Origin: an uncultured Bacilli bacterium
Lineage (GTDB): Bacteria; Bacillota_I; Bacilli_A; RF39; UBA660
Reading direction: 5' to 3'
Length of the DNA stretch: 47,477 bases
NCBI GenBank assembly: GCA_944358875.1
Contig: CALVRZ010000010.1
Span: forward strand, 1 to 47,477
In this document: positions 1,765-29,938 of the stretch, one piece after another
Numbering within the stretch: the stretch's first letter is position 1
Layout: each line of letters starts with the position of its first letter
Position numbers and translations under genes: made by a program
The notes under the pieces: generated by a model
The model's input: the letters and a program-made list of their open reading frames with translations, nothing else
Database searches by the model: none
What the model was told of the DNA's origin: nothing

Positions 1765-2508
1765 ATGGATATGAATTTTTTATTTTTACGAAAAGCAATT
1801 TTATTAATACATGGGTTTGCAGGAGGACCTTGGGATTACGATAATCTTAGTAATGACTTACAGTTATATATAGATTTTGATGTTTATTCTTTTACTTTAC
1901 CGGGACATGATAAAATGATTATATCAAAAGTTACAAAAGATGACTGGATTAATGAAGCAGAACATCAACTGGAAAGTTTAATTGAAAAAGGATATAAAAC
2001 AATTTATGTGGTCGGACATAGTATGGGTGGTGTTATTGCTTGCCATTTAGCAAGGAAATACAACCAAGTTAAAAAATTAGTTTTAGCAGCGCCCGCATTT
2101 CGGTATTTTGTATTTAAAGATGATAAGTTAGATGTTATCGATAGTTTAAAACAAATGACGACACTTTTTAAAGATTATAAACCTAATGTGGTATTATCGA
2201 GAATTTTTAAAATTCCTGTTTCAACCGCGGGACAGTTTATGAAACTTGTTGATGAACATCATAGTGATCCAAAAGATATTACTTGTCCAGTGTTGATTAT
2301 TCAGGGACTGAATGATAAGGTTGTTCCTTTAGAGAGTTCTTCTTATGTTTATAAGAATGTTAAAAGTGATATTAAATTATTATATAAAGTTAAAAATGTT
2401 ACACATGATGTCTTTAGAGGGGAAAGAGGTAGCGAAATTAATAAGTTAGTTATTGATTTTTTTAGAAGTAAGAATTATTTACCAAGACAAGAAATAAAAA
2501 ATATATAA
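1765..2508 (+). CDS. Alpha/beta hydrolase (carboxylesterase/lysophospholipase type)
   Basis: A serine hydrolase of the alpha/beta-fold superfamily. Visible landmarks in the 247-residue frame: oxyanion motif LIHGFAGGP (14-22), nucleophile elbow GHSMGG with Ser86, acid Asp184 in GLNDKVVP and His214 in VTHDV, a complete catalytic triad. Length and motif layout fit monoacylglycerol lipase/carboxylesterase EstB-like enzymes acting on short acyl esters; the substrate cannot be told. There is no signal peptide, so it is probably cytosolic. The AAGGAAAGGG site lies closer to ideal spacing for a second ATG at 1771, so the true start may be two codons in. It is followed by a perfect palindromic terminator. 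Confidence 0.85.
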   Translation: MDMNFLFLRKAILLIHGFAGGPWDYDNLSNDLQLYIDFDVYSFTLPGHDKMIISKVTKDDWINEAEHQLESLIEKGYKTIYVVGHSMGGVIACHLARKYNQVKKLVLAAPAFRYFVFKDDKLDVIDSLKQMTTLFKDYKPNVVLSRIFKIPVSTAGQFMKLVDEHHSDPKDITCPVLIIQGLNDKVVPLESSSYVYKNVKSDIKLLYKVKNVTHDVFRGERGSEINKLVIDFFRSKNYLPRQEIKNI

Positions 2509-2534
2509 CCTTGATATCAAGGTTATATATTTTT
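2497..2534. terminator. 38-bp perfect palindrome, bidirectional terminator
   Basis: Every base from 2497 to 2534 is self-complementary about 2515/2516, ending in A4 on one side and T4 on the other. It contains the stop codon of the hydrolase (2506-2508) and touches that of the convergent redox gene (2536-2538), so it can terminate both. Confidence 0.75.
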
Positions 2535-2535
2535 A

Positions 2536-3756
2536 TTATATATTTAGCATGAGCCATTCGGGTTTAAAGATTAGGAGAATACCTATAAGAAGAAGAATTA
2601 GGCCACCGATTAGCTTAGTTAATCGGCTATATTTAGTTGATATACCTGTTACTTTGAGGGTTTTCATAGCAATCGTAAAGATAATTAAATCATCTAAGAG
2701 AAAACAGAAAATATATAAAATAAGATAGAGACTATATTCTAAAATATTTAGATTATTTAGAGAAAGAAGCGAAGTGAAGACGACAGGAAGACCTGCTGAA
2801 CAGGCTAATTCAATAATATTTACGGAAATGGCTAAACTAATTACACCAAGTAAAGCAAGATATAATTTGGATTCTTTGGTAAACTTTTTTATTTTACTAA
2901 AGATTTTGTTTTTCTTTTTATCATTGGTGACATGACAACCACTTTCAGGATTTTTAAAATAACTTGTTAAATTGATGATGCCGCCAGCGATGGCGATGAT
3001 AGCAACGATAAGGCGCAGTAAGGGAATTGTTCCCATGAAACTGGCAACATTTAACCAAGCAACCATAAATAATAAATAGATAAGAGCCGAAGTAAGAAGA
3101 AAACTTACACCTAGGATCCACATTCTTTTTTTATCTTTCATATTGATTAGCATACTTATTAAGAAAAGTAAAACCCACATGGCACAAGGATTAAAGCCAT
3201 CTAGTAAACCTAATAAGACTGTAATAACTGGTAGGGTTAAATTTTTGCTTTCAAATTCACCAATGAGAGGAATATTTATCCTATAATTACCATAATCTTC
3301 GATGTATTCATCAATGTCACTATTATCTTCGATGGGATATGTTGGTAATTCGATATTACCGATTAACTCCCCTACTTGGTCTTGATAACCATGATTGGAA
3401 TAATATTCAATGACTGCTTCAAAAGTTCTTTTGGTATTTTCGGAACTATAACCACTAAAAGTTTTTTCACCAATAACCGTGAATGGTACTCCTGATATGC
3501 GTACATCAAAGAGATTAGTTACCTTTCCTAAAAGATCACTATTTTCTTTATTACTTATTTCATATTTATAAACACGAAGATTGTCGTGTTTTTCTTCTAA
3601 TTCTTCTAATAGCTCGATCTCTTCTTGACAATGCCTACATGTATCAGAATGAAAAAGATATAGGTTGACAATATTTTCTTCCTTAGCATTAACATGAGGA
3701 AGAAATATAATAAAGGACATAAAAAATATTAGAAAGAGAGATATTATTTTTTTCAT
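2536..3756 (-). CDS. Membrane thiol-disulfide oxidoreductase: thioredoxin-like domain plus DsbD/CcdA-like membrane domain
   Basis: Probable carrier of reducing equivalents across the membrane to an extracytoplasmic thioredoxin-like domain. Residues 1-24 are a signal/anchor segment. Residues 28-125 form a thioredoxin/glutaredoxin fold with CRHC (Cys40, Cys43) and cis-Pro91. After an acidic linker, about six membrane helices run from 173 to 400. They carry one Cys each in GFNPCAMW (Cys191) and ELACSAGLP (Cys319), the paired membrane cysteines expected in CcdA/DsbD proteins. The start overlaps the stop of the small thioredoxin gene upstream by 4 bp, so the two are co-translated and may be redox partners. 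Domain order (thioredoxin first, membrane part second) differs from classical DsbD. The partner substrates are unknown. Confidence 0.85.
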   Translation of the reverse strand: MKKIISLFLIFFMSFIIFLPHVNAKEENIVNLYLFHSDTCRHCQEEIELLEELEEKHDNLRVYKYEISNKENSDLLGKVTNLFDVRISGVPFTVIGEKTFSGYSSENTKRTFEAVIEYYSNHGYQDQVGELIGNIELPTYPIEDNSDIDEYIEDYGNYRINIPLIGEFESKNLTLPVITVLLGLLDGFNPCAMWVLLFLISMLINMKDKKRMWILGVSFLLTSALIYLLFMVAWLNVASFMGTIPLLRLIVAIIAIAGGIINLTSYFKNPESGCHVTNDKKKNKIFSKIKKFTKESKLYLALLGVISLAISVNIIELACSAGLPVVFTSLLSLNNLNILEYSLYLILYIFCFLLDDLIIFTIAMKTLKVTGISTKYSRLTKLIGGLILLLIGILLIFKPEWLMLNI

Positions 3757-4013
3757 AATAACTCCTCAATTTGTTGTTCTAATTTTTTTAATGATAATTC
3801 ACCAACAATGCGTTTTATTTCTTGACCTTTCTCATCAACAATAATTACAACAGGTAAAGTTTTACCTATTTGATATTTAGTAACTTCTTCATGATTTAAA
3901 TCATAATCATATTCTGTGATATTAAGTTTATATTTTTCTTGGATTTGGTTATACCTATTGTTCATAATTAGACAAGCTGGACACCAGATAGCACTAAATT
4001 TTAAAAGTTGCAT
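3753..4013 (-). CDS. Small thioredoxin-like protein
   Basis: An 86-residue thioredoxin fold lacking the first strand and helix of full-length thioredoxin. The active site WCPAC (Cys11, Cys14) is near the N-terminus and the cis-Pro motif TLPVVIIVD near residue 53. With no signal peptide it is probably cytosolic and could pass electrons to the membrane cysteines of the next gene, with which it shares a 4-bp start/stop overlap. It begins 7 bp after the cysteine desulfurase stop. Confidence 0.88.
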   Translation of the reverse strand: MQLLKFSAIWCPACLIMNNRYNQIQEKYKLNITEYDYDLNHEEVTKYQIGKTLPVVIIVDEKGQEIKRIVGELSLKKLEQQIEELL

Positions 4014-7669: not shown

Positions 7670-8130
7670 TTATCTTGACTTACCAATATGTTGTTCATCA
7701 GAAGGCATATCCCATTCAATTTCTGGAAAATCGAAACTATCATAAGAGCTATAATCTTGAATAGTTTCTTGTTGTTGTACCTGTTCTTGTAACTCTTCCT
7801 GTTGTGTAATACTTAATTCTGTACTATCTAATCTTGCTTTTGTTTTTCAAGTGCTTTCTTATATCCTTCCTTTAATTTTTCAATGGTTTCATGACTTAAT
7901 GTTCTTTCATAATTTTTATTTAATCTTACTGCTTGCTTTTCTACATCAAAACAACCTACTATAAACTTTGAATCTAAATAATTTGTTGTTTTGCCATCTG
8001 GTTGTAATTCTTGAATATAAAAGGCTCCAAACATTTCTCCATCTCTATCAGAGCGATCTCCCATGCTATTTATATATTCTGTTGGCATTCTAGCAATAAT
8101 TATTTTTTTTTTGAATCTTGATGTTGCCAA
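7670..8130 (-). pseudogene. Frameshifted hypothetical gene
   Basis: The uninterrupted frame 8130-7828 encodes 100 residues starting MATSRFKKKIIIARMP and stopping after KALEKQKQD. If the frame is shifted by one base in the A-rich codons near 7840, translation continues for about 50 more residues (LDSTELSITQQEELQEQVQQ, then an acidic, aromatic tail ending DEQHIGKSR) to a stop at 7670-7672. The extension has clean protein-like composition, Gln/Glu-rich then acidic, so a single-base indel is the best reading. I do not recognise the family. It shows no membrane or signal segment. Confidence 0.6.
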
Positions 8131-8256
8131 TTATTAAATTGTTTTTTTAATCTTCTATACTAGGTGTTAATTTTAACTTTATAATAACCAAAAATTTTAA
8201 AGATAAAATAGCAACATTTTGAAATTATATTAACCTAATAATACATTAAAAAGAGA

Positions 8257-8484
8257 CTATTCTAAGTCTTTGAAGTCAAATAAATATTCACAATTAACTA
8301 AATCACTTAAGGCTTCTTCTGCAAAATAAATTAATGCATTATAAGGAGTATATTTTAAATTCAAATTTTTTTTACAATATTCTTTTAGATTAATCAAGTA
8401 GTTATCATTAATAAGAAATAACTTTAAATTATCTCTAAACAAATTAACAATTTCTTCTATAATAAAATCAATATTATATTCCAT
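8257..8484 (-). CDS. Small acidic hypothetical protein
   Basis: A 75-residue frame, acidic and rich in Asn, Leu and Phe, containing IIEEIVNLFRDNLKLFLI near residues 8-25 and ending FDFKDLE. No recognised domain, no membrane helix. No convincing ribosome site lies before the ATG, and the preceding operon ends in a terminator at 8598-8623, so expression is uncertain. It lies within the repeat-bounded island and may be a remnant. Confidence 0.4.
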   Translation of the reverse strand: MEYNIDFIIEEIVNLFRDNLKLFLINDNYLINLKEYCKKNLNLKYTPYNALIYFAEEALSDLVNCEYLFDFKDLE

Positions 8485-8597
8485 AATAAGATAAAATTAA
8501 AAAATTAATAAAATAGACTCATAATCTAAATTATTGATTTTATTTTTACTACTTTTTCAGCAGTCTCTTGGCAGGTCTTTCTTTTTTTGTTTCCAAC

Positions 8598-8623
8598 AAA
8601 AAAACTATGACTTAATCATAGTT
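8598..8623 (-). terminator. Terminator of the radical SAM/zinc-ribbon operon
   Basis: AACTATGA (8603-8610) pairs with TCATAGTT (8616-8623), and the stem is followed on the minus strand by a U run (8598-8604). It lies about 110 bp past the zinc-ribbon stop. The rest of 8485-8732 shows nothing I can name. Confidence 0.65.
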
Positions 8624-8732
8624 AGTTAATATAAATTAAAAAATAATTTTTAATATATTTTATCCTATTTTTTCCAATTTGTTAATTTATTTTTGAAAAT
8701 TCTTTAAGTTTTAACATTAAATAAAATGAAGA

Positions 8733-9107
8733 TTAACAATTAGTATCTGGATATATATCTTTACCACATTTTTTACACTTATGGGTTGGTTGATTTCCTG
8801 TAATTTCACACCCACCTAAAATATATTTATTTTTATCGTAATCATAAGTTGGTTCTCCATATAAATATTTCCATAATTCTATTGATCCACAATAAGGGCA
8901 TTTTCTAGAATTAATATCACTAATATTCGGAATACCATATACCTCTTGAGGTACATTGTTTTCTGGACTAATATCATATTTATTATTTTCAGTTTTTTCC
9001 TCTTTTTCCCATTGTTTTCTTAAACTATCAGGTATTCCATATACTATTTGTGGTATATTATCCTTTTCATCAATATCATATTTATCTTTTTTACTAAATA
9101 ACCCCAT
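8733..9107 (-). CDS. Possible internally initiated YGIP-repeat/zinc-ribbon polypeptide
   Basis: Within the 475-residue frame, GGAGG (9116-9120 complement) lies eight bases before an in-frame ATG at 9107. The sequence from there, MGLFSKKDKYDI, reads like a natural N-terminus, and it begins exactly at the boundary between the unknown middle domain and the repeat region. The product would be 124 residues: both YGIP repeats plus the C-terminal ribbon. It could be a second product of the same gene, or the scar of an ancestral fusion of two genes. Initiation here is unproven, since GAG-GAA codons can make such a site by chance. Confidence 0.4.
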   Translation of the reverse strand: MGLFSKKDKYDIDEKDNIPQIVYGIPDSLRKQWEKEEKTENNKYDISPENNVPQEVYGIPNISDINSRKCPYCGSIELWKYLYGEPTYDYDKNKYILGGCEITGNQPTHKCKKCGKDIYPDTNC

Positions 9108-10160
9108 ATCATTTTCCTCCATTTCTTCATCAATAAATATATCTGAATCATTTTTTACTAAATCAAGTAGTATATTAGATACTGTTTCTAATGAATCTAT
9201 ACCATATATATATCCTAATTTTCTTTCCCATACTACATTATCATCTTCATATTGTATAAATTCCCAAGCTTCTCCATCAAAAGCATCAACAACGCGATTA
9301 TCTGATTTTGCTAATTCTATATTTTGAATAATTAGTTTTAATTTTTCATCACTTATGCTATGTGAATATGATTTTGTCTTATCTTGACCATTTATAATTT
9401 CATATTTAATAGATAAATCATTATATATATACCATGTTTTTGTATTCCAAGTATAGATAGTTTTTAATCCCCAATCATGATCTTCTATTTTAAAAATTAA
9501 TTTTTTAGGTCTAATAAAATTTTTTATTTCATTTATCATATCAAATAATATATCTCTCTCCTGTTTACAAATATATCCATCTTTGTAATACTGATCATTA
9601 TCTTGTAATATTTCTCTAAAATTTAACCCTTGTGGAATATGTGCTGGGGTAAAATGTCTATCCCCTCTAATATAATCCCACAAATCAATAAATGCACCCA
9701 TTCTATTATCCCATTTGCCTTTTCCCCAAACTGAATTAGGTTCCTCGTATCGTAATTTATCATCATCTAGTCTTTGTGTTAATTCCTCTTTTAAAAATGA
9801 TAATCTTCCATAGGTAACAAATCTATTATCTTCTTCAAAATCATATGCATTGAATTTATCTTCAATTTTTTTGAAATAATCTAAATATAGTTCATTTGGT
9901 ATCTTGAATATTTCATATTTATTAAAATTATTAATAAATTCTTCTGTAATTTTGACTATTTCTTCTCTTTTTAATTTATTACTTAAAGAATCTATGCTAA
10001 TAGCTTCATATCCACAATAAGGGCATTTTTGTTTATGACTTACAAGTTTATCATTAGTCTCCTTATCTCCTAATGAATAATTAACGCCATAAACAACTAA
10101 TTGTTGACTTTCTTTACCACATTTAGCACATTTAACTATTTTTCTACTAATATCACTCAT
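8733..10160 (-). CDS. Double zinc-ribbon protein with two YGIP repeats, partner of radical SAM enzyme
   Basis: A 475-residue protein of unknown function. Residues 8-52 form a zinc ribbon (Cys11, Cys14, Cys46, Cys49). Residues 60-345 are a soluble, aromatic-rich domain I do not recognise. Residues 352-420 form a Lys/Glu-rich linker with two copies, 34 residues apart, of K-Y-D-I-x5-N... more exactly KYDIxxxxNxPQxVYGIP (360-377 and 394-411). Residues 421-475 are a second ribbon (Cys421, 424, 451, 462, 465, plus C-terminal Cys475) with YGEPTYDYD and LGGCEI, a pattern seen in many uncharacterised gut-bacterial zinc ribbons. Its ribosome site GGAGGG sits inside the last codons of the radical SAM gene, 3 bp upstream, so the two are translationally coupled. 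An internal ribosome site may separately express residues 352-475. Substrate, adaptor or unrelated roles cannot be told apart. Confidence 0.8.
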   Translation of the reverse strand: MSDISRKIVKCAKCGKESQQLVVYGVNYSLGDKETNDKLVSHKQKCPYCGYEAISIDSLSNKLKREEIVKITEEFINNFNKYEIFKIPNELYLDYFKKIEDKFNAYDFEEDNRFVTYGRLSFLKEELTQRLDDDKLRYEEPNSVWGKGKWDNRMGAFIDLWDYIRGDRHFTPAHIPQGLNFREILQDNDQYYKDGYICKQERDILFDMINEIKNFIRPKKLIFKIEDHDWGLKTIYTWNTKTWYIYNDLSIKYEIINGQDKTKSYSHSISDEKLKLIIQNIELAKSDNRVVDAFDGEAWEFIQYEDDNVVWERKLGYIYGIDSLETVSNILLDLVKNDSDIFIDEEMEENDMGLFSKKDKYDIDEKDNIPQIVYGIPDSLRKQWEKEEKTENNKYDISPENNVPQEVYGIPNISDINSRKCPYCGSIELWKYLYGEPTYDYDKNKYILGGCEITGNQPTHKCKKCGKDIYPDTNC

Positions 10161-10163
10161 CTT

Positions 10164-11252
10164 CTACCCTCCATAAATATCGTTGATACAGAAGTTTGGT
10201 TTTCTATCATCAAAATTAAATGTATGAAATGAATCACCTAAGCAATATTTCCATTTTGAGCATTTGCTACATTTATCACATTTTAATCTATCATCACTTC
10301 TAAATAGTTTAAACTTATTTTCCCAAACATCAACAAAACTATCTGTTTTTATATTTCCTTGTACAAACTCTGGTCTTCTTTCTACATTAGGGCATACAAA
10401 TATATCTCCATTACTTAATATACTTGCAACATATAATCCTGTAATACAGAAGAAATATGTATCTCTTATTTCTTTTTCCATAGGAATATCCAGGTAATGA
10501 CTACAACCATATTCAACATTCATTATATTTTCTTCTTTTTTCTCTTTGATGAAATTAAATAACCATTTATACTCATCTTTATCTAATAAAATATCTTTAT
10601 TACCTTTTGCTCTACCTATTGGATCTACATTTATAACTCGCCAAGAAATAATATTTAATTCTTTCATAAGTTTATATAAATCCTCTAATTCGTGAAGATT
10701 TTTTTTGTTAGCAACTGTTGTTACTTGAACGATTTTTATTGAAGGTACTTTTTGTAATTTTTTGATATTTTCTATAATTCTATCAAATGAACCTAATACT
10801 TTTCTAAAACTTTCGTGGGTTTCTTTCAAACCATCAAGACTTATTGAAATAGTTTCCATATTTGTATCATTCATTTTCTTTAAAATATCATCAGTTATTA
10901 ACATTCCATTTGATGTCATGCCCCATCTAAAACCTAACTTATTTGCATAATCCATTATTTCAAATAAGTCTTTTCTAACTAATGGCTCGCCACCTGTTAC
11001 ATTTAACAAAATATCATTAGCATTATAATGTTCTGAAATATCTAATAATGCTTTCTTCAAATCTTCTGCACTTATTTCATCTTTTGGAATAAAATCTCCA
11101 CAACTACTTCCACAATGCTCACATCTTGCATTACATCTTGAAGTAACTTCTAAAAACAAATCCTTTAATATAGGTTTTTCATATAATTTTTGTCTATACT
11201 CATATAACTTATCAAGATTCTTTATTTTTATTTGTTTTATTTCATCGTTCAT
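10164..11252 (-). CDS. Radical SAM/SPASM-domain enzyme
   Basis: Uses a [4Fe-4S] cluster and S-adenosylmethionine to generate a radical. The cluster motif CNARCEHC gives Cys43, Cys47, Cys50, followed by another Cys54, and the SAM contact TGGEP spans 89-93 (numbering from GTG 11261). The C-terminal third is a SPASM-type auxiliary-cluster domain: FFCITGLY, FVCPNVERRPEFVQGNI, then CDKCSKCSKWKYCLGDSFHTF and a last FCIND. SPASM enzymes mostly modify peptides or proteins post-translationally. ATG 11252 is preferred because AGGTG lies six bases before it. The next gene starts 3 bp after the stop and its ribosome site is inside this gene. No classical small precursor peptide is seen next to it, so the coupled YGIP-repeat protein is the obvious candidate partner, by inference. 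Confidence 0.92.
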   Translation of the reverse strand: MNDEIKQIKIKNLDKLYEYRQKLYEKPILKDLFLEVTSRCNARCEHCGSSCGDFIPKDEISAEDLKKALLDISEHYNANDILLNVTGGEPLVRKDLFEIMDYANKLGFRWGMTSNGMLITDDILKKMNDTNMETISISLDGLKETHESFRKVLGSFDRIIENIKKLQKVPSIKIVQVTTVANKKNLHELEDLYKLMKELNIISWRVINVDPIGRAKGNKDILLDKDEYKWLFNFIKEKKEENIMNVEYGCSHYLDIPMEKEIRDTYFFCITGLYVASILSNGDIFVCPNVERRPEFVQGNIKTDSFVDVWENKFKLFRSDDRLKCDKCSKCSKWKYCLGDSFHTFNFDDRKPNFCINDIYGG

Positions 11253-11271
11253 TAACAACACCTACTATTCA

Positions 11272-11934
11272 TTATTTATCTTCAATTTTAAATTGGTCAA
11301 ATTCTGCTTTCTCTTTATCGTCTTTCTTTAGCTTATTCATTTTTTCTTCTATTTCTAATTGTTCAATTTTATCATCTATACTTTTAATTAAATCATCAAC
11401 CTTAAATGGCTCGCCTAAATCTGTATTAGCAAAACTCATTTTTCCTAATTGTTGTGATTTAATTTCTTTAACCATTTTTTCTAAATCAAACATTTTAATT
11501 TTTGTAGTATTTAATATTGGATATTCAACATTACTTTCAGTTATAGAAATAGTTTCAAAATCTTTATCAAATGTTTCTTCATCGTCAGAAACATGAGTTT
11601 CTGATAAAGCATTTTTCATATCATAAATAATATCTTCAATAATAACAAAATCCTCGCCATTAATATTTTTTCTTATTTCCAACTAATAAGAAAGGAATTT
11701 CTTGTGCAGTTTGTAGATTACTAATTCTACTAGCAAATTGCATATATGTAATATATACTTTTGAACTTAAAATAACTTTAGTTCCACTATCTGCCATAAG
11801 TGTTGGAGATAAAAGAATATCGCTAACTTCTGTATTTTCTTTATTCTCACATGCCATAACAAAATCAACAATCTGTTCTTCATATCCACTGTTAAATAAT
11901 TTATCTATAACACCGATGGTACATCAAATTTCAT
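11272..11934 (-). pseudogene. Gene broken by two compensating frameshifts (JAB/MPN-like N-terminal part?)
   Basis: Three overlapping pieces read as one protein. ATG 11934, after an AGGTG site, gives MKFDVPSVL and then a stop. One base off, the frame runs IDKLFNSGYEEQIVDFV into the 65-residue frame (11857-11660). Another shift near 11685 returns to the first frame, giving the 136-residue piece ending at 11272. The join QEIPFLLVGNK/NINGEDFVIIEDI is continuous in sense. The Glu...LLVG...VIIEDI arrangement recalls the start of JAB/MPN metalloprotease domains, but the His-x-His-Pro motif is absent, so this is weak. The tail is Lys/Glu-rich coiled coil. It ends just before the radical SAM gene and may once have been the first gene of that operon. 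Confidence 0.6.
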
Positions 11935-26191: not shown

Positions 26192-27301
26192 TTAGGCTTT
26201 GATGTTTTCAATCATATCATCTAATGAGGTATCTTCAAAAAAGGTATTCATATTGTAGAAGAACATTATATCAGTAATTTGTTTATCAGCGATTAAATTA
26301 TTTATATCATCATAGTAATATCTAGGATCAATAATGATTATTTCTCTATAGTTAGATAAAATATAGGGAATAAAACTATTGGCATATGAATCTTTTATTA
26401 AAAGAAGTTTGTTTTCATTTTCAGAATTGGTTCTTATATCAATAATGCTTTTGTTACCACCGAAAAATATTTCATAGGGATTATAACTATATTGTTTACT
26501 GTCATCGTATATTGAGGTATACTCTTTTTCTTCATCATTATATGTTAGATAATATGATACTTCTTCTTTAGGTATGTATAATTCTATGCTATCAGCTTTA
26601 TTGTAGTAAGCAATTTTATTAGCACTTGTTCCAATAAAATTATTATTTACGATATATTTATCGTATTCTACATCCTTTTTATCATATAAGCTTTCACTGA
26701 TATAACGAGCGGCGAGGGAGGTATAATGATGATCTGTGTTATAAAAGATATTTTCATTTTTATGATTATTTAGGATATCAAAACAATTAATTGGGAATAA
26801 ATCATCAGCAAAATGGGCAACAAAATCGTGGTATATGTCTTTTTGAATATTGTTAGCACCTACTTCATTATAATATATTCCGATTTTATTTGGAATTAGG
26901 ATAAAATCAATATTTAATTCATTATAATTATCAATAAATTTGTTGATATTACCTACTCGTCTTTCTAAAAAATATGCATTAGGGACAACAGCTTCTTCAA
27001 TTAATCTATTATTTTCGCCAAAATATATATTATCAATTTTTTTTAATCCAATTTCTTTCTCAAAGTTAGTTTTTAAACTTTTCCACATATTTCTATTCCA
27101 AAACTGATCTTCTAAATACTTATTATACGAAGTAAAATAGTTTCCATCCATAGCATTATTAAAATTGATTTTAGGTTTACTTGCTAGGGTTCGGTTCTCC
27201 TCATTAGAAAATGATAAAGAAGGCGAAAAGACATTAATGAAAAATATAACTAGTAAATATAGTAATGTTAGCCATCCTATAAATGATGTTTTTTCCTCCA
27301 T
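26192..27301 (-). CDS. AlgJ/AlgX-like (DHHW) O-acetylation protein
   Basis: An extracytoplasmic SGNH-like acetyltransferase partner. Residues 9-27 form an N-terminal membrane anchor. The family signature is TDHHYTSLAARY with Asp190, His191, His192, the DHHW-type motif, and the nucleophile is probably the Ser in LIKDSYANSF near 308. In alginate and related systems this protein moves acetyl delivered by an MBOAT channel onto a polysaccharide. The MBOAT gene lies 13 bp upstream, an SGNH gene further on, so the context agrees. The polymer is unknown. Confidence 0.85.
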   Translation of the reverse strand: MEEKTSFIGWLTLLYLLVIFFINVFSPSLSFSNEENRTLASKPKINFNNAMDGNYFTSYNKYLEDQFWNRNMWKSLKTNFEKEIGLKKIDNIYFGENNRLIEEAVVPNAYFLERRVGNINKFIDNYNELNIDFILIPNKIGIYYNEVGANNIQKDIYHDFVAHFADDLFPINCFDILNNHKNENIFYNTDHHYTSLAARYISESLYDKKDVEYDKYIVNNNFIGTSANKIAYYNKADSIELYIPKEEVSYYLTYNDEEKEYTSIYDDSKQYSYNPYEIFFGGNKSIIDIRTNSENENKLLLIKDSYANSFIPYILSNYREIIIIDPRYYYDDINNLIADKQITDIMFFYNMNTFFEDTSLDDMIENIKA

Positions 27302-27314
27302 GTTAATTCCTCCT

Positions 27315-28673
27315 TTAAAAATTAAAATATAAAAAGGCTTGGTATGAATAGCTTATCATGTATGAAGTTGACAAGCACATTAGCGCAATTAAATATGCAC
27401 TGTTAAAACAATTATAGAGAAAATTAGTTTTCTTTTGAAAGAACTTACCAATATTTTTGATGATAGGAGTAATACATATTAAACCAACAATTAGGTATGT
27501 AATATTATTTTTTATTATAAATATTATTTGGTTATCAACAAGATGATTGGTATTTAAGAGATTTTTTAAAATTAGAGTTATATTATTTAAATTAGAATTA
27601 AAGAAGAAAACCCAACTTATTGATATAATGGCAAAAGTAAATAACATACAGATTATTTTAGGAAATTTAATTTTTGATAAAAGAAGCTTTTCTATAATTA
27701 TAATACTGCCTAAAAAAGCACCCCAAATAATGAAATTAAAGCTTGCACCATGCCACATTCCTGTAATAATCCATACGATTGACAAGTTTATTGCTAAACG
27801 AAGTTTCGATGTTCGGTTACCTCCTAGGGGAATGTAAATATAGTCACGAAACCATTCTCCTAACGAAATATGCCATCTTCTGAAAAACTCACTGACACTC
27901 TTCGATAAACATGGATAATTAAAATTCTCTTTAAATTTAAAGCCAAAGATATTACTTAAGCCTAAAGCCATATTGGTATATCCGGCAAAATCATAATATA
28001 TTTGCAATGAATATAATATAATTATTATAATACTACCAAGCATAGAGCTTGATTCATAAGATGAGAGAATTCTAGAGAAAGTATCCGCTAGGATTACTTT
28101 CATCGATAAACCAATGATAAATCTTTTGAAACCATAATTAAATAAGGAATTATTGAAATCATGATTATCTAGTTGCTCTTTAAAATCATGATATCTAACA
28201 ATTGGTCCCATGATTAACTTAGGGAAAAAGAATATATATAAACTAAAAGAAATAAAGTTTGACTCACTATTTGTTTTCCTTCTATATACATCAATTACAT
28301 AGGATAAGATAGTGAAGATATAAAATGACATTCCTATAGGGAGAATAATTTCTTTAAATGCTATGTCATTAAATAAATTATTTAATATAATGTAATAATA
28401 TTTAAAATAGCATAATGTAAAAATATTTATTATCAATATTTCAATTAATTTATATTTTCTATTTGTTACTAATTTATCCATCTTTCTAACAGCAAAAAAA
28501 TTATAAATGGTTATTAGTAACAGTATACAAGTATTAAAAATACTACTATATGAATAAAATAATATACTAACAATTAATAAATATATGTTTTTAATTTTTT
28601 TAGGAATCAAAAAATATATTATGGTAACAATTGGTAAAAATAGAAAGCAAAATACAATACTATTAAAAGCCAC
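27315..28673 (-). CDS. MBOAT-family O-acyltransferase (AlgI/DltB-like)
   Basis: A polytopic membrane enzyme that transfers acyl groups from the cytosol to extracellular polysaccharide. 452 residues with ten or more hydrophobic segments. Diagnostic motifs: DFAGYTNMALG, FRRWHISLGEWFRDYIYIPLGGNR, and WIITGMWHGASFNFIIWG, which holds the catalytic His near 310. Same strand and tight spacing with its DHHW, DUF4358 and SGNH neighbours make this an O-acetylation operon. Start MAFNSIVF is the standard AlgI-type N-terminus. Confidence 0.95.
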   Translation of the reverse strand: MAFNSIVFCFLFLPIVTIIYFLIPKKIKNIYLLIVSILFYSYSSIFNTCILLLITIYNFFAVRKMDKLVTNRKYKLIEILIINIFTLCYFKYYYIILNNLFNDIAFKEIILPIGMSFYIFTILSYVIDVYRRKTNSESNFISFSLYIFFFPKLIMGPIVRYHDFKEQLDNHDFNNSLFNYGFKRFIIGLSMKVILADTFSRILSSYESSSMLGSIIIIILYSLQIYYDFAGYTNMALGLSNIFGFKFKENFNYPCLSKSVSEFFRRWHISLGEWFRDYIYIPLGGNRTSKLRLAINLSIVWIITGMWHGASFNFIIWGAFLGSIIIIEKLLLSKIKFPKIICMLFTFAIISISWVFFFNSNLNNITLILKNLLNTNHLVDNQIIFIIKNNITYLIVGLICITPIIKNIGKFFQKKTNFLYNCFNSAYLIALMCLSTSYMISYSYQAFLYFNF

Positions 28674-28689
28674 TTCTTCTTCCTTCTTT

Positions 28690-29151
28690 CTAAAATAATT
28701 TGACGATATCCTGCCATAAGGATTTATTGTTTTCTAGAATGATACAAAATACATAGTCCCCCTCTACTTCGACGATGGCATTTTTGAGTAATTCTACTTG
28801 ATTAGGACCATAACCTTCAAAGGTAGTAATTTTTTTGTCAATATATTCTTTTATTTTTTTGACAATTAAAGTTCTTTGGTTTTTATCTTTTTCTTTAAAG
28901 ATAGTAATTTCTTGGACATTCATATATGAAACGGGGCCATAACTTATATACTCTTCTATAGAATTAGCATTTATTTTATAATTGTTATATAGTGTATTTG
29001 AATCAACTTTATGTACTATTTCTTGATCTATATAAGGTTCAAGAACAGTTTCAATTTCATCAAAGGCAACCTTTTTATCTTTGGTTAAAAAAGGAATTAT
29101 TAATAAAATACTTATAAAAAGTATAATGAAAATTATTTGTTTTAATTTCAT
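28690..29151 (-). CDS. DUF4358-like membrane-anchored protein
   Basis: 153 residues: an N-terminal helix (5-23) and a small extracytoplasmic alpha/beta domain. The segments YISYGPVSYMNVQEITIFKEKD and FEGYGPNQVELLKNAIVEVEGDYVF fit the pattern of DUF4358 proteins of gut Firmicutes, often found beside MBOAT/SGNH acetylation genes. Molecular function unknown. It lies between the SGNH and MBOAT genes with 4 and 16 bp gaps, so it is part of the operon and perhaps an accessory of the acetylation complex. Confidence 0.7.
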   Translation of the reverse strand: MKLKQIIFIILFISILLIIPFLTKDKKVAFDEIETVLEPYIDQEIVHKVDSNTLYNNYKINANSIEEYISYGPVSYMNVQEITIFKEKDKNQRTLIVKKIKEYIDKKITTFEGYGPNQVELLKNAIVEVEGDYVFCIILENNKSLWQDIVKLF

Positions 29152-29155
29152 ATTA

Positions 29156-29938
29156 TTACCTCATTTTTTCTAAAATATCATTGGCCCATTTTTCATAGAA
29201 AAAGCCTTTAGGATGAATGCCATCAGGACTATATGGGTCATCGACTGTTGCTAATATATAACTGCTATCTATAAATTTAATTCCCCTGTCGTTACATAAT
29301 TGTTGTAATCGTTCATTAAATAAACTAATATATTGGAAAGATGAGTCACTATTTATTGCTTCTTGACTGACAGGGAGAATGGAACACACATATACCGTCG
29401 TATTAGGTAGAGCATTAGCAATATTATCTAAACTATTACTATATGCGGCAATAAAACCATCGACATTATTACTCCACATTTGAACATCATTTGAACCATA
29501 AGAAAGAATTAGAGCACTAGGATTATAAGTAATAGCTTTTTCTAGTTGGTCTGACATATCATCAATCCTTTTTCCTCTTTGCCAGATAGTATTAGATGAA
29601 TATAAAGCTCCATACGCTTCCATACCTTCGACAAAAGAATCACCAATCATCAATATTCTATTTTGTTGGAAGAAATCTTTGGGAGATATATTATAATCTG
29701 GTACTACTGGTATAGGAGGTTTAGGATTATTTACTTCGTCAATGTCTTCTTTGATTTTAGTGATATCCTTGTTTTTTTCATTATAAAAAAATTGTTCTGC
29801 ATCTTCATATGTATTACTATTTTGGACAAGTTTAAAAGAATTATTTTTTACTATATAGTTACTAGTAAATAAGGCTATCGCAATACATAGTAATAGATTT
29901 AAAGTAATATGAATTATTTTCTTCATTTTATCACACAT
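29156..29938 (-). CDS. SGNH/GDSL-family esterase, membrane anchored
   Basis: A serine esterase or acetyltransferase outside the cell. Residues 10-30 form the N-terminal anchor. The catalytic blocks are complete: GDSFVEG (Ser101), the Gly in VDDMSD...block III GSND (Asn150) and DGIHP (Asp238, His241). In this operon it would either transfer acetyl groups to, or remove them from, the polymer handled by the MBOAT/DHHW pair. The upstream-most start MCDK may be replaced by ATG four codons later; neither has a strong ribosome site. First gene of the operon. Confidence 0.88.
   Translation of the reverse strand: MCDKMKKIIHITLNLLLCIAIALFTSNYIVKNNSFKLVQNSNTYEDAEQFFYNEKNKDITKIKEDIDEVNNPKPPIPVVPDYNISPKDFFQQNRILMIGDSFVEGMEAYGALYSSNTIWQRGKRIDDMSDQLEKAITYNPSALILSYGSNDVQMWSNNVDGFIAAYSNSLDNIANALPNTTVYVCSILPVSQEAINSDSSFQYISLFNERLQQLCNDRGIKFIDSSYILATVDDPYSPDGIHPKGFFYEKWANDILEKMR

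Follow-up and report, generated by a model that had tools for sequence, protein, structure and literature searches.

The radical SAM/SPASM protein P0002 of an uncultured gut bacterium of the Bacilli probably modifies the product of the adjoining downstream gene, P0001, at the Tyr-Gly of each N-x-P-Q-x-V-Y-G-I-P repeat that P0001, as a folded carrier, displays on a flexible segment, a reading to which we assign a probability of about 0.72. The pair lies in a window of 47,477 nucleotides, by which we mean the whole stretch of DNA that was analysed. Enzyme and motif occur together, the motif is conserved, it decays where the enzyme is lost, and a Tyr-Gly motif is common to the wider enzyme clade. 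We infer from the sequences that the motif is itself the modified site. According to the proposed mechanism, P0002 would act as a radical SAM/SPASM modifying enzyme with P0001 as its substrate; it would recognise the short stretch N-x-P-Q-x-V-Y-G-I-P, the carrier protein would present that stretch on its flexible segment, and Tyr-Gly would be chemically altered once per repeat.

The P0002-P0001 gene pair

10164..11252, minus strand: P0002, radical SAM/SPASM enzyme, 362 aa, TIGR04133-like (ORF, Pfam and TIGRFAM model scores)
10161..10174, minus strand: gene junction; the radical SAM gene contains the ribosome site GGAGGG at its 3' end and closes with the stop TAG, after which come 3 bp and the P0001 ATG
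8733..10160, minus strand: P0001, proposed substrate protein, 475 aa, two VYGIP repeats (ORF; relatives at L020, L022, L008, L010, L003 and L013)
9027..9083, minus strand: repeat 1, KYDIDEKDNIPQIVYGIPD, residues 360-378
8925..8981, minus strand: repeat 2, KYDISPENNVPQEVYGIPN, residues 394-412

As the earlier note had described, the two genes are 3 bp apart (AAG, between the stop TAG and the P0001 ATG), and the ribosome site of the second, GGAGGG, falls within the last codons of the first. The P0002 gene is intact, with a GTG at 11261 as a possible alternative start further upstream. Its product matched the Pfam models Radical_SAM (PF04055; 80.1 bits, 2.7e-22) and SPASM (PF13186; 37.1 bits, 4e-9), both above cut-off. 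The CxxxCxxC reported previously is indeed intact (C40/C44/C47), as is the presence of a SPASM cysteine cluster (C269, C287, C328, C331, C337 and C355), but the canonical set is incomplete, since Ser341 replaces the last Cys of CX2CX5CX3C. This missing CX3C cysteine, together with C51 just past CxxxCxxC and C250, an extra Cys that is invariant in 15 clade members, marks the clade to which P0002 belongs. Comparison with relatives in other species gave dN/dS values of 0.04-0.08, indicating strong purifying selection. The structure model of P0002 (pLDDT 81.5) found its best likenesses in SkfB, CteB, SuiB and anSME, enzymes that modify peptides or proteins, which adds only that P0002 is predicted to be a peptide-modifying SPASM protein. 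A phage or viral origin of the pair was rejected, the phage collection holding no relatives and the viral contigs a single, motif-free match of 23%; a link to defence systems was likewise set aside, as the matches were generic viperin-like ones only.

The two KYDI-N-PQ-VYGIP repeats of P0001 begin at residues 360 and 394, confirming the spacing of 34 residues. At least one VYGIP arose by chance in 42 of 200,000 shuffles of P0001. The DNA of the repeats is identical at only 40 of 57 positions, so the two did not arise by a recent duplication. The description of the repeats as lying between two zinc ribbons is correct as to position, with Cys pairs CAKC and CPYC at one end and CPYC and CKKC at the other as read from the translation, but the first ribbon is ~300 residues from the first repeat, and several homologous pairs have no ribbons. 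No zinc-ribbon Pfam model scored above cut-off on P0001, and no lipobox was seen in its translation. In the AlphaFold model of the L010 partner (172 aa), the motif region, residues 1-43, is below pLDDT 50 and a folded domain follows; a Mago-like fold for that domain was a weak match (TM ~0.4) and was set aside.

Enzyme and motif co-occur across the order

When P0001 was searched against 288 genomes of the order, its parts were found separately, the repeat segment residing in different proteins. Close relatives of the enzyme (74-100% identity) occur in 6 of the 288 genomes (G000, G160, G191, G178, G227 and G142); relatives at 56-60% identity occur in two further genomes, and G191 has one of this kind as its second copy. 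A model built from the repeat only recovered full motifs in exactly the six genomes that carry a close enzyme relative (hypergeometric 1e-12, a value that ignores adjacency and relatedness and comes from a small set of mutually related loci). The motif protein adjoins the enzyme in all six, apart from one intervening gene in G160. Three weaker, partial matches comprised the decayed G175 locus and two short ones (E 0.004-0.04) in long unrelated frames. The check proposed in the earlier note, whether a radical SAM gene always goes with the repeat protein, came out positive for each full motif in the 288 genomes; neither a motif widespread without the enzyme nor a pair adjacent in one genome only was seen. 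The locus appears to be patchily distributed, and the pair is not confined to the source genome, its adjacency and motif being kept across several genera.

The partners, including that at L020, range from 172 to 1231 residues with one to four repeats, and some lack zinc ribbons. Several have a C-terminal domain in common, while the G142 partner matches the others only in short stretches around the repeat; that at L008 has 219 aa and three VYGIP. The residues Y, N, P, Y, G and P do not vary across the 14 repeats compared, and no other part of these otherwise varied proteins is as constant as the motif. Relatives at class level include G350 (enzyme 71% identity, partner motif LYGPP) and G423 (44%, with IYGPAP between two zinc ribbons). 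In G423 the enzyme relative, at L033 (1462-2553), is broken by one in-frame TGA, with which decay, sequencing error or read-through would all fit. Since ribbons are not conserved, being absent from the partners in G178, G191, G142 and G350, the role of zinc-ribbon adaptor once suggested for P0001 is unlikely. The companion suggestion of a two-core substrate on a folded leader fared better: association, constancy and co-decay favour several cores on a folded protein, whereas the number two belongs to the shortened form in the window, relatives having 1, 3 or 4.

Two natural losses were encountered. At L021 the enzyme gene is missing from between its usual neighbours, no enzyme relative was found in that genome at E 1e-15, and the repeats have degenerated to VYGKT and LYDIP in a frame that is still open. 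At L043 (G175) the match to the enzyme does not extend beyond its first 73 residues, and a frameshift disrupts the partner. Such decay is what would be expected if the motif were kept only for the enzyme, as far as can be judged from two cases in metagenome-assembled genomes that may be incomplete.

The window appears to carry a shortened form of a longer locus

11272..11857, minus strand: what is left of two genes upstream, a fusion in which the first part of an HxH protein runs into the last part of a VirD4-like ATPase (two overlapping frames; both genes intact in L020)
7828..8130, minus strand: remnant of a 173-aa gene for an unrecognised protein (intact in L021, 7322-7843, downstream of the repeat protein)

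The enzyme at L020 is 99% identical to P0002. The gene run there comprises an HxH protein (JAB-like by eye, unrecognised by Pfam), a MerR regulator, a VirD4-like ATPase (Pfam T4SS-DNA_transf, 3e-18), the enzyme, a 1231-aa four-repeat protein, and downstream of it an ADP-ribosylglycohydrolase (7998-9005) and others, among them genes of 180 aa, 311 aa and 312 aa. Relative to L020, the greater part of the first three genes is gone from the window, as are 1.1 kb inside the partner, two repeats and the C-terminal part of the partner; the scar at 11272..11857 was left where a short sequence shared by both sides, near 11569-11581, served as the deletion point. By this comparison the window copy appears to be a deletion-shortened form of the longer locus, although the deletions may instead have originated as an assembly chimera. 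The ATPase is not found beside the enzyme in G142, G350, G423 and G178, and the enzyme and motif protein therefore make up the minimal unit. Elsewhere in the window (26192-29938), an MBOAT-type O-acetyltransferase-like run with SGNH-like partners was noticed by eye.

A Tyr-Gly or Tyr-Ala motif accompanies the TIGR04133 clade

The earlier note recognised no named peptide-maturation family. The nearest by model is TIGR04133 (rSAM_w_lipo), on which P0002 scores 303 bits, below the curated cut-off of 425, compared to 607.9 bits for a Parabacteroides member; its lipoprotein partners also carry YGxP. P0002 and TIGR04133 members form one clade in the tree (100/99). The TIGR04134 lipoprotein model had no match in the source genome, but none in control genomes either. 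Three records of the plasmid collection contain TIGR04133-type enzymes with lipoprotein partners. Where the lipobox probably lies, or immediately after it, these TIGR04134 lipoproteins read CEYGSP in Parabacteroides, SCYGMP in Treponema and CEYGTP in Phocaeicola. Thus the TIGR04133/TIGR04134 systems of Bacteroidota and Treponema share with the P0002 pair an adjacent YGxP partner and the enzyme cysteine pattern; in contrast to their partners, P0001 is no lipoprotein, and it differs further in carrying its VYGIP tag repeatedly and in its other domains.

The enzyme relatives at 56-60% identity adjoin proteins with QPxYGV repeats (WXG100-like) or PPKYAP repeats. A WXG100-like domain is preceded by eight QPxYGV repeats at L029 (2629-3471) and by three at L031 (915-1433); the domain call has a Pfam E of ~0.003, below cut-off. 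Their position by a radical SAM enzyme suggests that these proteins may be modified type VII secretion substrates. At L030 (490-1387, a stretch partly masked as N), PPKYAPAP repeats, with Tyr-Ala rather than Tyr-Gly, lie by a 56%-identical enzyme.

A strict YG.P was present in a neighbouring frame at 12 of 15 TIGR04133-clade loci, the 15 being related rather than independent, as opposed to 1 of 13 other SPASM loci (p 0.0002). A protein with a Y-G or Y-A motif is found next door at all 15 clade loci, the L033 IYGPAP having been added by hand; because we settled on this looser pattern once the data had been seen, we weigh only the strict count. We found no paper on TIGR04133, its chemistry or its target site, nor one that connects WXG100 proteins with radical SAM enzymes in the sense of modification; the broad splicease survey of Scott et al. 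2022 (Chem 8:2659) may already include some of these proteins.

Comparison with spliceases and other SPASM systems

PlpX, with PlpY, excises a tyramine unit from X-Tyr-Gly (PMC11002830; PMC10533398), and PIRPLYGLPI and AVAAGYGVVFP are among the splice tags that have been tried with PlpXY (PMC10533398). Those tag types seem to resemble the VYGIP and QPxYGV types found here. Like the P0002 pair, PlpXY (PlpX falls in IPR026482) combines a radical SAM/SPASM enzyme with X-Tyr-Gly, a core also present in P0001, followed in its case by LP or VxxP; as with the repeats here, several sites per precursor are possible, and the tag works inside proteins. The P0002 pair differs in that no PlpY relative was found at these loci with the 71-aa Nostoc protein, a single fast-evolving query, in having a folded carrier and no Nif11/NHLP leader, and in the cysteines of its auxiliary clusters (C51 and C250 are additional, and Ser takes the place of the last CX3C Cys). 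P0002 also scores 95.6 bits on the PlpX family model TIGR04103, compared to the 725 needed, and scores higher on the AhbD, mycofactocin MftC and WgkB models. Membership of TIGR04133 or PlpX was therefore rejected, both curated cut-offs having been missed; P0002 may act like a splicease, yet lies outside that family by its tests. A Nostoc plasmid enzyme of the PlpX family reaches 853 bits, over the 725, and adjoins a Nif11 precursor ending GGRGSIALYGLPPELF (LYGLPP core) as well as a 71-aa gene placed where PlpY would be expected. At L065, a FYGLPP frame lies within 1.2 kb of a Tropicibacter PlpX-clade enzyme (2174-3796).

In a tree of 28 SPASM proteins, from which AhbD, PqqE and others were omitted, the TIGR04133-like and PlpX/TIGR03913 clades formed one group and may be sisters (99/95, falling to 81/82 with five long branches added). 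The TIGR03913 'GDL motif' enzymes, which go with DUF1843 peptides, belong to the same wider clade as PlpX. Aureibacter DUF1843 peptides at a TIGR03913-like locus begin IIQPYGAGIREAI or YLPMYAASIREAI, hinting that Tyr-Gly/Ala may be the target there too; in contrast to the P0002 system, the peptides are short, two of the three at that locus have YA, and the enzyme is ~26% identical to P0002. The peptide starts beside the Aureibacter enzyme (L063, 1674-2387) are IIQPYGAGI, YLPMYAASI and YQVLYAAGI. The SPASM enzyme MftC acts on a C-terminal Val-Tyr pair (PMC8326336), and mycofactocin precursors end GVY; compared to the P0002 pair, its target has no Gly after Tyr, it forms a separate clade and it has MftB.

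Candidate chemistry and alternative explanations

Tyramine excision, with a shift of -135.08 Da per site, is our leading candidate for the chemistry, held tentatively and at somewhat under an even chance. The repeats could equally be substrates of a non-splicing reaction, namely a crosslink, oxidation or decarboxylation at Tyr of the sort other SPASM enzymes perform, a possibility that we likewise place short of even odds; a thioether within the motif is excluded because the motif has no Cys. Non-splicing chemistry would accord with TIGR04133 standing apart as a clade that has a cysteine pattern of its own, with the lack of a detected PlpY, with the higher MftC and WgkB scores, and with the KYAP variant at L030, whose Tyr-Ala an XYG-type splicease may not accept. 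Set against it are the VYGIP motif itself, which has the same form as splicease cores, and the tree, in which grouping of the P0002 clade with MftC was rejected, albeit weakly (p 0.03).

Many maturases bind a short leader sequence, and the motif is short and repeated, as it would be if VYGIP were a docking tag for the enzyme and the modification fell elsewhere on the partner or on a third protein. We regard this as unlikely, given that the invariant centre is Tyr-Gly-x-Pro and that no other neighbour goes with every pair; outside the motif the partners show poor conservation from locus to locus, and hence no other constant target was seen. That the repeats are a linker only, with the two genes neighbours by chance, would suit a repeat number of 1 to 4 in a region predicted to be disordered, but is very improbable in view of an adjacency and a motif that persist over several genera while the rest changes, and of a motif that decays upon loss of the enzyme. 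Modification of P0001 by P0002 at the Tyr-Gly of each repeat is the reading that we favour.

Significance

TIGR04133/TIGR04134 is a known pairing, annotated in gut Bacteroidota. A YGxP motif shared across a wide phylogenetic divide points to a precise residue pair, in peptides sized for routine mass spectrometry. If splicing were the reaction, the consequence would be an electrophilic or protease-resistant site in the backbone, VYGIP might serve as a short protein-engineering label needing one enzyme rather than two, and the surfaces of gut bacteria would feature proteins with edited backbones.
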